The translations under genes were made by a program, and so were the position numbers. The notes beneath the pieces were generated by a model. It ran no database searches. It was not told the DNA's origin and saw only the letters and a list, made by a program, of their open reading frames with translations. Shown here piece after piece: positions 58,558 through 64,000 of a DNA stretch of 64,000 nucleotides (position 1 is the first letter of the stretch; each line of letters opens with the position of its first letter). Source of the stretch: Streptomyces sp. TS71-3 (GTDB taxonomy: Bacteria; Actinomycetota; Actinomycetes; Streptomycetales; Streptomycetaceae); the NCBI RefSeq assembly GCF_018327685.1, contig NZ_BNEL01000003.1:496001-560000 (forward strand), read 5' to 3'.

Positions 58558-59277
58558 GTGACGCACGCACAGGAACGGACAACGGCCGAACGCCGGAAAC
58601 CCACAGGTGAACCCCCCGGGGAACACCCCGCAGAACACGCAGGGGAATACTCAGCGGAAGACCCCGGGGAACGCACCCGGAACCGCACCCGGAAGCCCGC
58701 CCTCTCCTCACGCCTGCACGGCCGCACGGCCGCGAACGTGCCCCGCTGGGCGGTGCTCGCGGCCTACGCCGCCGCTCTCACGACCCTGCCGTCGGGCATC
58801 TGGCGCATCGCGGCGGTCACCTTCCACACCCCGCTGCTGGAGCACCCGGCGCGGGAGGTGGACGGCCACGGCCCGGTCGTCTTCACCGGCACGTGGTACG
58901 TCGTCGCGCTGACCGTCGTCAGCGAGGCCCTGGCGTTCCTCACGGTGGGCCTGGTGAGCGAGTGGGGCGAGCGCGTACCGCGCTGGATCCCCCTGCTGGG
59001 CGGCCGCAGAATCCCACCACGGGCCGCCACGATCCCCGCCGCCCTCGGCGCCACGACCCTCACCGCGCTCTTCCCCTACGCCCTCCTCATGCTCTCCCTG
59101 GGCCGCACCCTCAACGGCTCCCCCGGCACCGGCGTCGTCCTGCACGGCTGGCAGATCCCGGCGTTCGTCATCGCGTACGCGCCGTTGGCGGCGTGGGGGC
59201 CGCTGTTGGGGGTGGTGACGGTGCATTACCACCGGCGCAGGGCGAGGCGGGCGGGTCGAGCGGCGCAACCCCGCTGA
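58558..59277 (+). CDS. four-helix membrane protein of unknown function
   Basis: The 239-residue product (GTG start) has a hydrophilic N-terminus of ~60 residues rich in Glu/Arg/Pro (EPPGEHPAEHAGEYSAEDPG), then about four membrane helices (WAVLAAYAAALTTLPSGIWR, WYVVALTVVSEALAFLTVGL, IPAALGATTLTALFPYALLM, IPAFVIAYAPLAAWGPLLGV). The tail is basic. Related proteins of unknown role are common in Streptomyces. The low-complexity N-terminus suggests a later start is possible. Substrate or function unknown. Confidence 0.8.
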   Translation: MTHAQERTTAERRKPTGEPPGEHPAEHAGEYSAEDPGERTRNRTRKPALSSRLHGRTAANVPRWAVLAAYAAALTTLPSGIWRIAAVTFHTPLLEHPAREVDGHGPVVFTGTWYVVALTVVSEALAFLTVGLVSEWGERVPRWIPLLGGRRIPPRAATIPAALGATTLTALFPYALLMLSLGRTLNGSPGTGVVLHGWQIPAFVIAYAPLAAWGPLLGVVTVHYHRRRARRAGRAAQPR

Positions 59278-60121: not shown

Positions 60122-60976
60122 ATGCCGCCGAGGGATTACCCGACCGCACGACAGGCTCGACTTGGGGCGGAGCTCCGCAAAATGCGCGAGAGCGCCGGGA
60201 AGACAGCTGTGGACGCGGCAGCTCTAATTGCGGCAGATCGAACAAGGATCAGCAACATCGAAGCAGGGCGCCTAGGAATCAGCGAAGAACGCATCCGGCG
60301 GCTGGCGACGTTCTACTCGTGCGACGACGCAGCATATGTGGACGCGCTGTGCGCAATGTCCAGAGAGCATCGCGGACAATTCTGGTGGGATGAGTACAGG
60401 GGAATCCTCGCTCCAGCATTTCTCGATATCGCCGAGCTGGAATACCATGCCACTTACCTTCGGTCACTCCAAACGGTTACGCTGCCTGGACTAGTCCAAA
60501 CAGAGGACTACATGCGCGTCATCTTCAACGGGGCGACCCCGAAACTGCCCACCGAAGAGGTGGAGGTACGTACCGAGCACCGCATGCGACGCCGGATCAT
60601 CTTCGAAAGAGACCCATCGACCCCGCTCGAAGCGATCATTCATGAGGCCGCGCTACGCATGAAGTTCGGCGGGCGAAAGGTTGCAAGGGCACAGTTGGAA
60701 TACCTCCTGGAGTGCACGGAGAGAAAGAACATCACAGTTCGGGTGATCCCATTCACGAATGAGACGTTCATCGAAACTACACATCCGGTCTTGTATGCGG
60801 GTGGCGTCGTTCCACAACTGGACACCGTTCGGGTCGACAGTCATCTGGGCGACCAGTTTATGGACTTGGAAACCGAACTCAGGAAGTGCCGGAGTCTATT
60901 CACCGTAGCCGAGCAGGTGTCACTCGACCCCGACGATTCTCAACAATTGATTCGCGGTATCGTAGCTGAAGCATGA
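60122..60976 (+). CDS. XRE-family regulator with DUF5753 domain
   Basis: The 284-residue protein has an N-terminal helix-turn-helix (LGAELRKMRESAGKTAVDAA, ADRTRISNIEAGRLGIS) and a DUF5753 domain (VTLPGLVQTEDYMRVIFNGA). It has the classic Streptomyces layout: a strong GGAGGAAGGTGAGG ribosome binding site and a DUF397 gene 13 bp downstream. Its GC content is clearly lower than the flanking genes, with many A/T-ending codons, pointing to horizontal transfer. Such pairs regulate development or accessory loci; the target here is unknown. Confidence 0.93.
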   Translation: MPPRDYPTARQARLGAELRKMRESAGKTAVDAAALIAADRTRISNIEAGRLGISEERIRRLATFYSCDDAAYVDALCAMSREHRGQFWWDEYRGILAPAFLDIAELEYHATYLRSLQTVTLPGLVQTEDYMRVIFNGATPKLPTEEVEVRTEHRMRRRIIFERDPSTPLEAIIHEAALRMKFGGRKVARAQLEYLLECTERKNITVRVIPFTNETFIETTHPVLYAGGVVPQLDTVRVDSHLGDQFMDLETELRKCRSLFTVAEQVSLDPDDSQQLIRGIVAEA

Positions 60977-60989
60977 AAGGAAGCAGGAA

Positions 60990-61190
60990 GTGAACGAAGA
61001 AATCCGATGGCAGAAGTCTTCTTTCTCCGGCGCAAATGGAGCAGACTGCATGGAGATAGCACACATGGATGACCGTATTCTCGTGCGAGAAAGCGACGAT
61101 CCGGATCTGATTATCACCACCAACCCTGAGAAATTGCGTGCATTTATTCTAGGTGTGAAATCAGGGGAGTTCGATCACTTTGTGAACTGA
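60990..61190 (+). CDS. DUF397 protein
   Basis: The 66-residue product MNEEIRWQKSSFSGANGADC continues MEIAHMDDRILVRESDDPDL. The W-x-K-S-S-x-S motif with a following acidic segment defines DUF397. These small proteins act with the upstream XRE-DUF5753 regulator, apparently as antagonist or partner. AGGAAG lies just upstream. Low GC like its neighbour. Confidence 0.95.
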   Translation: MNEEIRWQKSSFSGANGADCMEIAHMDDRILVRESDDPDLIITTNPEKLRAFILGVKSGEFDHFVN

Positions 61191-61263: not shown

Positions 61264-61866
61264 TCACCAGAGAGTCGGTTGCTCTCCCGGTTCGGGTGCG
61301 CCGGGCAGGCCGGGCGGTACGGCTACAGCGATGAGCTGGTCCCAGGTGCCGTAGTGGTCAGCCATGGACACGAGAAGTTGCGCCGTGGCGTATGCGTCAT
61401 ATGTGGCGCGGTGCCGCTGGCCGGAGGTTGCACTGAGGTCCGGCTGGATGTCTTCGATCAGGGCATCGAGAGTGTATTTCGGCAGGTGCGGGTAGGTGGC
61501 TTTGGCCAGCCGAAGTGTGTCAAGAACGCCGGCCGGCTGCCACTGCGGCAGATGCGCGGAGAGCACCCGGTAGTCCACTTGGGCGTTGTGGGCGCAGATC
61601 CACGACGTGCCGAGGAGGGTGAGGACCTGATCGGCGATCTCCTGCCAGCCCGGCTCGTTCTCCAGCCGCTGGTTGGTCAGGCCATGGACGCGAGCGGCGT
61701 AGGGGGTGACCGGGCGCCGTGGTCTGGTCAGCCATGCCCCGGCCGTACTTGTGTCCAGCCGCCCGTCGCGGACGGGCAGGGCGGCTACTTCAACGAGGTC
61801 GGGCGGGTTGGTGCCGTTGCCTTCGACATCGACCACGAGGAGCGGGGGCCAGGAGGAGAAGTTCAT
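61264..61866 (-). CDS. DEDDh 3'-5' exonuclease, DnaQ-like
   Basis: The 200-residue protein has the DEDDh residues in order: LLVVDVEGNGTNPPDLVEVA (Asp, Glu), WICAHNAQVDYRVL (Asp) and HRATYDAYATAQLLV (His, Asp). It resembles the exonuclease domain of PolC/DnaQ and removes 3' nucleotides of DNA or RNA. ATG 61866 overlaps the radical SAM stop (ATGA), so it is the last gene of a coupled operon. It could degrade a nucleic acid or modified nucleotide made by the upstream enzymes; that is inference only. Confidence 0.9.
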   Translation of the reverse strand: MNFSSWPPLLVVDVEGNGTNPPDLVEVAALPVRDGRLDTSTAGAWLTRPRRPVTPYAARVHGLTNQRLENEPGWQEIADQVLTLLGTSWICAHNAQVDYRVLSAHLPQWQPAGVLDTLRLAKATYPHLPKYTLDALIEDIQPDLSATSGQRHRATYDAYATAQLLVSMADHYGTWDQLIAVAVPPGLPGAPEPGEQPTLW

Positions 61867-63041
61867 CCGGGTTGGGGTCCGTTCTCTGCCGGCCAGCCGA
61901 TGGAAGCTCGGCCGTGCCGGCGGTAGTGGTGGGGCTTGGCGCGGTCGTGGCACTGGTAGCCGAAGCCGTGCTGGAGGAAGTACCTCGGCGGCTCGTCCAA
62001 TCCCTCGACGACAATGGCACGGTCGGTGACCTCTACCACGCCCGTCGCGCCGACGCGTCGCGCCTCTTCGGTGACGGTTGTCGGTTCGGGTTTGTCCCAG
62101 GCTGCCTGGCAGCGGGCGATCTGCTCTTCGGGGCAGATGTCGCACAGCTCCCGGATACCGAAGTGGCCGTTGTAGTCGGCCTCGCCATGGGCGTACGCGA
62201 CCCCGCAGGAGGTCTTGCGGAACAGGGCACCCCAGGAGTCGCCCTTGTGGAAGGTATCGAGTATGCGCTGCTCGGCGGCCTCGGGCATGATCTTCCGCCG
62301 CGCCGTCGCCTCGTACGGCATCGGCAGCCCGTGCGTCTCGTAGTACGCCTTGATCTCGTTGCGGAAGAAGAGTCCGGTGAAAACGGTGGCGTGCGCATGG
62401 TGGGACAGTTCCCGAGCACGCTCAAGGTGGGCGTCTGAGTCGTTCAGGCCGGGCACGACCGGTCGCCAGTACAGGACCGTGCGGTACCGCTCGGCGTGCT
62501 CGTGCAGGGTACGCAGGCTGCGGGCTGCGATGGCGGAGTCCACCGGCTCGATGGACGGGTTGTCGATGCCTGAGTGGGTGACCAAGACGGTCAGGCGTAA
62601 GTGCTGAAAGGAATTGAGCAGTGCACAGTCTTCGGCCGTGGTCCGCCAGCGGGTGATGATCAGGACGTGATTGGTCAGGCCCTGGTCGTCCAGATGGCGC
62701 AAGACGGTGAACAGGTGAGGCTTGACCACCGGGAGCATGGGGTCGGTCGCTCGGTTCAGAAGCTGGAGGGGCGTGGTGTGCGGGCGGAAGTACTCGTGGC
62801 TGACGAGGGCTGCGACCGCTGCTTCGTCGCTCATCAGCCGCCGCGGGCTCTTCATCCCGAAGTTGTCGAACAGGTGACGTACGCAGTAGCCACACTCCAG
62901 GGGACAGCCCACGATCCAGTTCAGGGACAGCCCCGACTTGCGGTACTCGATCACGTCGGCCAGTGCTGGCTTGAGGGCGCCGATCTCGTCCGAGCTGAGA
63001 ATCGGCAGGGCTCGGCGCTGGGACGGAATGGGAGCGGTCAT
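61863..63041 (-). CDS. radical SAM protein of unknown function
   Basis: The 392-residue protein has the radical SAM cluster motif CPLECGYC (CxxxCxxC) in GLSLNWIVGCPLECGYCVRH at about residues 43-50, so it binds a [4Fe-4S] cluster and SAM. The C-terminal half has further Cys (CGVAYAHGEADYNGHFGIRE, CDICPEEQIARCQAAW), which suggest an extra cluster, although these are not the SPASM pattern. The start is ATG 63041 with CTGGAGGACTG upstream, sharing one base with the preceding stop (TGATG). The substrate is unknown; close operon genes suggest nucleotides. Confidence 0.9.
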   Translation of the reverse strand: MTAPIPSQRRALPILSSDEIGALKPALADVIEYRKSGLSLNWIVGCPLECGYCVRHLFDNFGMKSPRRLMSDEAAVAALVSHEYFRPHTTPLQLLNRATDPMLPVVKPHLFTVLRHLDDQGLTNHVLIITRWRTTAEDCALLNSFQHLRLTVLVTHSGIDNPSIEPVDSAIAARSLRTLHEHAERYRTVLYWRPVVPGLNDSDAHLERARELSHHAHATVFTGLFFRNEIKAYYETHGLPMPYEATARRKIMPEAAEQRILDTFHKGDSWGALFRKTSCGVAYAHGEADYNGHFGIRELCDICPEEQIARCQAAWDKPEPTTVTEEARRVGATGVVEVTDRAIVVEGLDEPPRYFLQHGFGYQCHDRAKPHHYRRHGRASIGWPAENGPQPG

Positions 63042-63607
63042 CAGTCCTCCAGGGAAGTAGGGCTCTCGTGTGCCGTCTTCGGGACGATCAGGTCGCTTTG
63101 GCGGGCGCCGTACCAGGTGCCGAAGTCGCGGCACGCCGCGCCGGGATCATCCGAGGTGTGCACGAGGTTGTTCACAAGGCGGCGTTCAGTGAGCGCGGCG
63201 TCATGGCTGTCGCGTCCGAGGTCGCCACGGATGGTGCCGGGGCGGGCACGTGATGGGTCCCAGTGGCCAAGGAGGCTGCGCAGCCGAACGGAGATGCCGG
63301 CTGGGCCGGAGGCGAGGGCGACGGTAACCGTCCGGCCGACGTACAGCTCATCGAGGGCGCGGGGGATATCCCGGTCGGCGAACCAGTCGCGATCGACGAG
63401 TAGGTCCCCATAGTGCACGTGGATCTGCCATGCGGCCACGGTCACGTCTTGGCGTCCGAGGATCGTCACGTCAGGCAGGGTGAGGCGCTTGAGGATGGTG
63501 GACACGAGCCCGCGTTGCTGGGCGTCGGGCTTGCAGAGAATGATCGACCAACGATTCCAGTCGACGCCGTCCACCACGGCGCCGCTGACGGAGGGTTTGC
63601 GCTTCAT
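63041..63607 (-). CDS. nucleoside-diphosphate-kinase-like protein
   Basis: The 188-residue protein carries an NDPK fold: SIILCKPDAQQRGLVSTILK (with the conserved Lys), SRARPGTIRGDLGRDSHDAA, and VNNLVHTSDDPGAACRDF, where Asn and the phospho-acceptor His of the NxVH(G)SD motif are kept but Gly is Thr. It is longer than the ~137-residue housekeeping Ndk, with an N-terminal and a C-terminal extension and an altered middle (kpn-type loop). So it is a specialised paralogue, perhaps acting on unusual nucleotides. Its start and stop both overlap neighbours. Confidence 0.85.
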   Translation of the reverse strand: MKRKPSVSGAVVDGVDWNRWSIILCKPDAQQRGLVSTILKRLTLPDVTILGRQDVTVAAWQIHVHYGDLLVDRDWFADRDIPRALDELYVGRTVTVALASGPAGISVRLRSLLGHWDPSRARPGTIRGDLGRDSHDAALTERRLVNNLVHTSDDPGAACRDFGTWYGARQSDLIVPKTAHESPTSLED

Positions 63608-64000
63608 CGGCTCTCACCGCCGTGAGTAGAGCAGGCCGGCCAGCGGTGGGAAACGAGCCACTGTAAGCCGGGATCGAGTGCCTGGAGGATGCCGCTGGCC
63701 ACTCTTTCGACCTGGTCGTGCTGAAGCTGGCGGTAGGCCTCGAACAGCAGCAGGACTTGCTGCCAGTACGGCTCAAACCCAAGGCTCGCGATGTCATGAG
63801 CGCTGTAGTGGGCCTGGTTTGTACGCAGGGCATCCTCATGGTGGAGCAGACGGGTCACGGTCGCGGCAGTGGTCGTCGTCGGCATCGCCGGGAACGGAAA
63901 CCGAAGCGCGGACCCACGAGTGGCAACCTCGTGCAGCACGCGCCGAACACGGGAGGTGTTCCGTTTGTTGACGTGGGCCGAGCCGATGAAGTGAATGTAC
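63604..64000 (-). CDS. unknown protein, first visible gene of the coupled operon, 5' end outside window
   Basis: The frame is open to the window edge, reading YIHFIGSAHVNKRNTSRVRR, then VLHEVATRGSALRFPFPAMP, LLHHEDALRTNQAHYSAHDI and VLLLFEAYRQLQHDQVERVA. GTG 63939 is unlikely to be the start because the upstream codons are coding-like. The stop overlaps the NDPK-like ATG (ATGA). No domain is recognised in the ~132 visible residues; the text is helical and has several His. Confidence 0.75.
   Translation of the reverse strand, partial: YIHFIGSAHVNKRNTSRVRRVLHEVATRGSALRFPFPAMPTTTTAATVTRLLHHEDALRTNQAHYSAHDIASLGFEPYWQQVLLLFEAYRQLQHDQVERVASGILQALDPGLQWLVSHRWPACSTHGGESR

Follow-up and report, generated by a model that had tools for sequence, protein, structure and literature searches.

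A mobile radical SAM-exonuclease-kinase cassette and its expanded form in Streptomyces sp. TS71-3, with a possible role in nucleotide-analogue defence

Introduction

What could be made by an operon that joins a nucleoside-diphosphate kinase (NDPK), a radical S-adenosylmethionine (SAM) enzyme and a 3'-5' exonuclease, and could it protect its host from phages? The question is raised by genes at the right edge of a 64,000-nucleotide stretch of Streptomyces sp. TS71-3 (G000:C3:496001-560000; genome of 9.79 Mb), called the window as a whole, for which the original prediction had proposed a coupled four-gene unit acting in modified-nucleotide synthesis or in defence. Here we show that these genes belong to a cassette with a core of radical SAM enzyme, DEDDh exonuclease and P-loop kinase, that the window operon is a Streptomyces elaboration of this cassette without the kinase and the reductase present in other copies, and that the cassette is patchy and mobile and sits in defence islands outside the actinobacteria. 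We give an even chance to the reading that the window operon represents a mobile nucleotide-analogue cassette in an enlarged Streptomyces form, anti-phage by the mechanism proposed in the Discussion. The radical SAM-exonuclease-kinase combination had no description in the open literature searched, with subscription papers and bioRxiv outside the scope of that search, and the available portions of PMC10853773 and PMC12926258 contain nothing on it.

Results

Reading the contig past the right window edge (as L003; window position equals L003 position plus 60000) completed an operon of five genes, encoding in reading order a TauD/TfdA dioxygenase, a MilA-like hydroxymethylase, an NDPK, a radical SAM enzyme and a DEDDh exonuclease (Table 1). 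The four predicted genes are all real and lie on the minus strand with the ATGA, TGATG and ATGA junctions described, but the TauD dioxygenase gene adds a fifth; the gene said to be cut by the window edge is completed on the contig to position 64689, and the "unknown protein" is a MilA-like cytidine monophosphate (CMP) hydroxymethylase. Read on the contig from TauD onward, the four junctions are ATGA, ATGA, TGATG and ATGA, and these overlaps bear out translation as one coupled unit. A NUDIX gene and a gene for an XRE-type regulator (weak HTH and TPR matches) are divergent from the operon, which has a lower guanine plus cytosine (GC) content (0.656) than the window (0.732), as had been claimed. 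Because the gene order is conserved across phyla, the operon is not a chance grouping.

Table 1. Positions of the operon genes, of selected motifs and of the HD-domain protein of related copies (window numbering unless a locus is named).
Feature	Position	Strand	Support
TauD/TfdA 2-oxoglutarate dioxygenase	65489-64686, beyond the window	-	PF02668
MilA-like CMP 5-hydroxymethylase, thymidylate-synthase fold	64689-63604 (in window 63604..64000; L003 3604-4689), 361 amino acids (aa)	-	PF00303
Divergent NDPK	63041..63607	-	PF00334, 52.5 bits
NDPK His150 codon	63158..63160	-	His in 67/67 aligned NDPK domains
Radical SAM enzyme, cassette core	61863..63041	-	Outside any Pfam family
CxxxCxxC motif (Cys46, Cys50, Cys53) of radical SAM enzyme, for its 4Fe-4S cluster	62883..62906	-	Invariant in 38/38 aligned sequences
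Second cysteine set of radical SAM enzyme (Cys279, Cys300, Cys303, Cys311)	62109..62207	-	Invariant in 38/38 aligned sequences
DEDDh 3'-5' exonuclease	61264..61866	-	PF00929, 67.8 bits; DxE, HNxxxD and HxxxxD motifs
Exonuclease C-terminal QPTLW tail, putative sliding-clamp-binding motif	61267..61281	-	Tail conservation
HD-domain protein	L137 12302-13738; L142 12298-13734; L140 12310-13740; L148 12302-13732		

Related loci were chosen by a search with the radical SAM protein alone, and their neighbours were then examined. Among 295 genomes of the same genus, 25 gave a match (15 full-length, 8 fragments only and 2 remote), and a one-genome-per-species scan contributed the best 80 of 250 relatives, so that close relatives are favoured. 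The 95 loci of both sets, less five duplicates, gave 90 distinct loci; fragments (L046-L051, L054-L056) and the two remote matches (L052 and L053, 26% and 24% identity, without an exonuclease homologue) were left out of the counts. An exonuclease gene lies downstream in all 90 distinct loci, a P-loop kinase gene is present in 84, an aldo/keto reductase gene in 51, an NDPK gene in 44 and a hydroxymethylase gene in 43, the last always accompanied by the NDPK. The check on joint conservation that the original prediction had called for was passed. The kinases are either of the AAA_28 type or relatives of thymidylate kinase (PF02223), and comparison with solved structures gave nothing convincing as to their identity (best E 0.0014, to MobB). 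The module of TauD, NUDIX and XRE genes seen in the window is present in just 5 of the 95 loci. Six of the 90 distinct loci are without the kinase, and L072, which also has the TauD module, is likewise without kinase and reductase.

In the rhizobial and Labrenzia copies the kinase is followed by an HD-domain protein of 476-478 aa, with no aldo/keto reductase after it; this protein may be a nucleotide phosphohydrolase. The TS71-3 genome also holds a second, truncated copy (G000:C3:2233717-2234202; L051 9097-10215), in which radical SAM residues ~14-173 are followed by a piece of the exonuclease, and which resembles the thymidylate-kinase-type cassette of other Streptomyces. In the same-genus genomes with fragments only (L046, L047, L048, L049, L050, L054, L055 and L056), a single long exonuclease match persists in five of the eight (L047, L049, L054, L055 and L056). 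Fragments thus sit beside long exonuclease matches, which suggests rapid loss of the radical SAM gene in Streptomyces.

For the hydroxymethylase, a profile of nine sequences, window protein included (A2), matched the CMP 5-hydroxymethylase MilA (5jnh) with 336 bits, while the best-scoring thymidylate synthase reached 64. In MilA, Lys133 and Ala176 favour CMP over deoxycytidine monophosphate (dCMP), and Asp186 is the cytosine residue (available text of PMC5175136). By HMMER alignment these three correspond to Lys156, Ala199 and Asp209 of the window protein; of 41 relatives, all have Lys156, Asp209, the catalytic Cys178 and Glu90, and 39 have Ala199. CMP hydroxymethylation is thus the likely reaction, judging from these residues. 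No other solved relative comes nearly as close as MilA, and the specificity residues are shared with MilA and BcmA (of mildiomycin and bacimethrin biosynthesis), but the ribose-binding Tyr218 of MilA is replaced and the cassette gene is followed by NDPK and radical SAM genes; because of the replaced tyrosine we use the name MilA-like, not MilA. The NDPK retains its His motif in all 28 single-domain and all 20 two-domain loci, and by analogy we take His150 to be the phosphate-carrying histidine. The modified-nucleotide theme of the original prediction is in keeping with the CMP-hydroxymethylase signature, the NDPK and the nucleotide kinase of the relatives.

The radical SAM enzyme fitted no characterised family, a point on which the original prediction had asked for a check. 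Its profile gave no convincing match among solved structures, and membership by sequence in the spore photoproduct lyases or the viperins was rejected on this result. When folds were compared, the rows were tied among several radical SAM enzymes, with viperin and spore photoproduct lyase (SplB) not set apart, and the substrate therefore cannot be read from the fold. SplB gave some of the longest fold matches (238-248 residues), and relatives of the cassette enzyme are named DNA repair photolyase by JGI; however, identity to SplB is 10%, the Z score is tied with other radical SAM enzymes, and we know of no SplB counterpart of the cassette operon partners. The PADLOC library holds viperin models, and the cassette enzyme differs from the prokaryotic viperins (pVips) in having no PADLOC match, in its constant exonuclease and kinase partners and in its extra C-terminal cysteine set, which may bind an auxiliary cluster.

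The exonuclease has the DxE, HNxxxD and HxxxxD motifs and the RNase_T domain of the DEDDh class, and it is a DNA-type enzyme whose closest solved relatives are the exonucleases PolC, ExoX, DinG and DnaQ. Its C-terminus is conserved, ending in LW (93), LF (12) or LL (4) in 109 of 117 distinct sequences and in FL in five more; the last two positions have entropies of 0.4 and 1.0 bit, and each of the preceding twelve has at least 2.06. Of the 1510 remaining gene calls at the 95 loci, only 4 have one of the three endings LW, LF and LL, and none has LW. The tail reads QPTLW in the window, QGSLW in Pseudomonas, QEKLF in Obscuribacterales, QESFL, QSSFL or QDNLL in rhizobia and DQLTLDL in the phage-like contig L162, and glutamine is the fifth-last residue in the listed exonucleases of Pseudomonas, Melainabacteria and alphaproteobacteria. 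A similar peptide, QLPLWG, is the clamp-binding motif of mycobacterial ImuB (PMC10421592, as far as its available text goes), but the glutamine position is E or D in 87 of the 117 cassette exonucleases. We infer from this likeness that the tail may bind the sliding clamp.

The cassette extends well beyond Streptomyces. Identity to the window radical SAM protein is 54-57% for plasmid copies of Rhizobium, Sinorhizobium, Mesorhizobium, Agrobacterium vitis, Labrenzia/Roseibium and Gluconobacter, 50% for Nostoc, and 58-60% for Pseudomonas and a Candidatus Obscuribacterales contig (Melainabacteria). The gene was found in 0 of 397 further Pseudomonadota genomes (E<=1e-8) and in 0 of 50,697 phage genome records, and nine IMG/VR contigs carry it. 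In E. coli, the 35 matches listed or counted were short (the rows shown span 4% of the query) and fell on pdxI, that is, on the reductase part, and were set aside. In a tree of 29 radical SAM sequences the alphaproteobacterial copies cluster, those of Melainabacteria and Pseudomonas branch apart in a part without resolution, and Nostoc falls together with the phage-like contigs L161 and L162. On the contig L159, portal, terminase, major head, minor head and head protease genes surround SIR2, HerA, radical SAM, exonuclease and kinase genes, and in L161 (327-4655) and L162 (8467-11783) a hydroxymethylase-NDPK-radical SAM-exonuclease set lies beside endolysin and tail genes. Since the hydroxymethylase-NDPK module of these two contigs sits on a separate radical SAM branch, it may have joined the core early or twice. 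The plasmids, phage-like contigs and patchy distribution agree with the horizontal transfer suggested at the outset.

Outside the actinobacteria, annotation places the cassette among anti-phage genes: Shedu and an ABC-three-component system in Rhizobium and S. chiapasense; a CBASS-like patatin/DncV/ThiF set in S. meliloti, whose end lies ~0.8 kb away from the radical SAM gene; and an AAA-helicase pair, an "anti-phage deoxyguanosine triphosphatase" and a TIR protein in A. vitis. The Pseudomonas copy neighbours SIR2-HerA and a second SIR2-like protein, and the Obscuribacterales copy adjoins a GajB-like helicase. Less telling neighbours are an N-6 methylase in Labrenzia, a restriction endonuclease and toxin-antitoxin genes in Mesorhizobium, an HNH nuclease and a RelE toxin in Gluconobacter and toxin-antitoxin genes only in Nostoc. 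The SIR2-HerA pair lies directly upstream of the cassette in both L159 (7012-12236) and the Pseudomonas locus L134 (6683-12332), and the two could possibly form one joint unit.

This setting was compared with controls by means of PADLOC at E<=1e-15. The 107 neighbour proteins of eight loci (the complete annotated genes of seven plasmid stretches outside the cassette, and nine open reading frames (ORFs) of Pseudomonas L134) matched 199 families, against 6 families for 106 control proteins; families are not proteins, a single Shedu protein matching 11. Controls were 45-50 kb stretches of seven of the same plasmids, taken by coordinates, from each of which the first 14-16 complete genes were used (106 of 310 annotated features), with none for Pseudomonas; by annotation they hold no named anti-phage system, and toxin-antitoxin genes in two. 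The 25 neighbour families listed include GajA, GajB, CBASS cyclase, E1-E2, HerA, IetA, dGTPase, SduA, LmuB and ThsB. On the strength of this difference we regard the cassette as associated with defence outside the actinobacteria.

In Streptomyces, the PADLOC 2.0.0 scan covered the window operon and the two divergent genes. Within the operon the exonuclease alone matched (DEDDh and PDC-S48 models), with no match for the hydroxymethylase, NDPK, TauD or radical SAM proteins (E<=0.1), and the divergent NUDIX and XRE genes matched PDC-S07 and HTH-type models. The Rhizobium radical SAM copy likewise matched 0 families, and the Rhizobium kinase and HD protein had no match either (all at E<=1e-10).

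Discussion

Two known systems led us, by analogy, to propose a nucleotide analogue as the product. Viperins make 3'-deoxy-3',4'-didehydro-nucleoside triphosphates (ddh-NTPs; available part of PMC10732462), and in Photorhabdus the radical SAM enzyme, kinase and triphosphatase encoded by thmA-C give rise to 4'-thiothymidine, a DNA replication inhibitor that is incorporated into DNA, efficiently so by polymerases without 3'-5' proofreading according to work cited in the accessible text of the same report (PMC12691670). The cassette resembles thmA-C in its minimal content of radical SAM enzyme, nucleoside kinase and third gene amid varying surroundings, as far as that text describes them, but the third gene of thmA-C encodes a triphosphatase, whereas the cassette has a DEDDh exonuclease and often a reductase, a hydroxymethylase and an NDPK. 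A kinase adjoining the radical SAM gene, as in thmA-C, was found in 84 of 90 loci and not in the window copy. The product of the cassette is probably a modified building block of DNA or RNA. In the mechanism that we propose, the radical SAM enzyme would modify a nucleotide by radical chemistry, one or more kinases would raise the product to the triphosphate, and an infecting phage would have its nucleic-acid synthesis poisoned by the analogue. The C-terminal tail of the exonuclease would anchor this enzyme to the sliding clamp of the host, and the enzyme would edit the analogue out of host DNA, or else attack poisoned ends. In the window version, CMP would be hydroxymethylated first and a dedicated NDPK would carry the hydroxymethylated nucleotide on to the triphosphate, and this copy would still have to work without the kinase. 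An anti-phage role would apply at least in proteobacteria, with the exonuclease possibly protecting the host. A more specific version, "poison and proofreader" immunity, in which the clamp-tethered exonuclease would clear a replication-poisoning nucleotide from host DNA only, phage polymerases that use other clamps or none would be stopped, and Streptomyces would have added a hydroxymethyl-CMP supply and a private NDPK, strikes us as rather doubtful.

Several findings weigh against the analogue-immunity proposal. The window copy has no kinase next to the exonuclease and no reductase downstream, and the kinase was not found genome-wide in TS71-3, where an empty result shows little. The kinase was also undetected in the phage-like L161 and L162, and the Nostoc plasmid copy L139 (9980-11788) has radical SAM and kinase genes with no annotated exonuclease between them. 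The window radical SAM protein, as noted, matches 0 PADLOC families. At 31 loci of non-Streptomyces actinobacteria, the 109 neighbour proteins (the nearest called genes on either side of each locus) matched 33 PADLOC families, with no clear enrichment and no control of their own, and the 25 families listed are mostly cytosine-methyltransferase models, each hit by a single protein. At the fifth tail position, counted from the end, 61 of the 117 exonucleases have E, 26 have D and only 16 have Q, and the position of MilA Tyr218 is occupied by N (24), G (11), C (4) or R (2) in the 41 hydroxymethylase relatives. The predicted defence setting therefore stands for the core in non-actinobacterial relatives but not for these 31 loci, and the original prediction is partly supported: a modified nucleotide is likely, and so is defence for the core in proteobacteria.

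The main rival holds that the radical SAM enzyme and the kinase (with hydroxymethylase, reductase and dioxygenase) make a secreted nucleoside antibiotic aimed at other bacteria, with the exonuclease, HD protein or NDPK serving in tailoring or self-resistance. It fits the actinobacterial setting at least as well as analogue immunity does, given the absence of clear defence enrichment at the non-Streptomyces actinobacterial copies, and it shares its minimal logic with thmA-C, whose triphosphatase confers self-resistance (PMC12691670, in its available part). The nearest counterpart of the hydroxymethylase is MilA, an enzyme of mildiomycin biosynthesis, an upstream neighbour on two Streptomyces plasmids is named "DUF6415 family natural product biosynthesis protein" by NCBI, and several alphaproteobacterial copies have an HD-domain protein after the kinase. 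However, the strong defence-island setting outside the actinobacteria and the position of the cassette beside SIR2-HerA among phage head genes speak against an antibiotic, as do the exonuclease being the most constant partner and the conserved neighbour clusters, in which, among those profiled (not all were), no transporter was noticed. On balance we consider an antibiotic somewhat unlikely. We find it improbable that the cassette modifies or repairs nucleic acids, with the radical SAM enzyme (of SplB-like fold) acting on DNA bases, the exonuclease resecting and the hydroxymethylase and kinases feeding modified cytosine into DNA: the tied fold rows allow no substrate to be deduced, the hydroxymethylase bears the ribo-type Lys/Ala pair, and a patchy distribution in islands (0 of 397) would be unusual for general repair genes.

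The window copy by itself may be a variant or may be decaying. The idea that it alone is a decaying or re-purposed relic, idle or reliant on host enzymes after loss of kinase and reductase, draws on the missing kinase (neither beside the exonuclease nor elsewhere in the genome), on the 8 of 25 matching same-genus genomes that hold fragments only and on the truncated second copy in the same genome. Yet its five genes are open and coupled, its hydroxymethylase, NDPK, radical SAM enzyme and exonuclease retain the residues that were checked, and L072, which has the TauD module, is also without kinase and reductase; because L072 shares the same losses, the window form may be a stable variant, and we see only a slim chance that it is a relic.

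If the analogue-immunity proposal is true, nucleotide-analogue immunity would extend beyond viperins to another family of radical SAM enzymes whose sequences show no detectable relationship to viperins, one equipped with a built-in means of keeping the analogue out of host DNA and thus offering a test case for how cells survive their own chain poisons. It would also indicate new nucleotide chemistry of antiviral or antibacterial use, perhaps acting on hydroxymethylcytidine, and would explain a cassette that ranges from Streptomyces to rhizobial plasmids and phage-like contigs and is absent from the 2023 PADLOC library. A radical SAM gene flanks a defence hotspot of P. aeruginosa according to the available text of PMC10250203.

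Other Features of the Locus

The XRE-DUF5753/DUF397 pair at 60122-61190 is convergent to the operon and lies in the lowest-GC stretch of the window (the lowest three 2-kb windows start at 59001, 60001 and 61001), with a GC content of 0.554, lower still than that of the operon. The original prediction had taken the position of the operon next to this pair as typical of transferred loci. The pair is not conserved beside the cassette: by tblastn, DUF5753 turned up no farther than 8 kb away at 12 of 95 loci and DUF397 at 2 of 95, and the pair was rejected as a part of the system. Looser ORF clustering gave DUF5753-like genes in 16 loci.

Just past the divergent regulator lie genes for two large proteins, L003 7584-11009 (BTAD, NB-ARC and TPR domains) and L003 11567-14158 (together 67584-74158 in window numbering), the second of which resembles its BTAD/NB-ARC/TPR neighbour over residues 348-1001 by tblastn.

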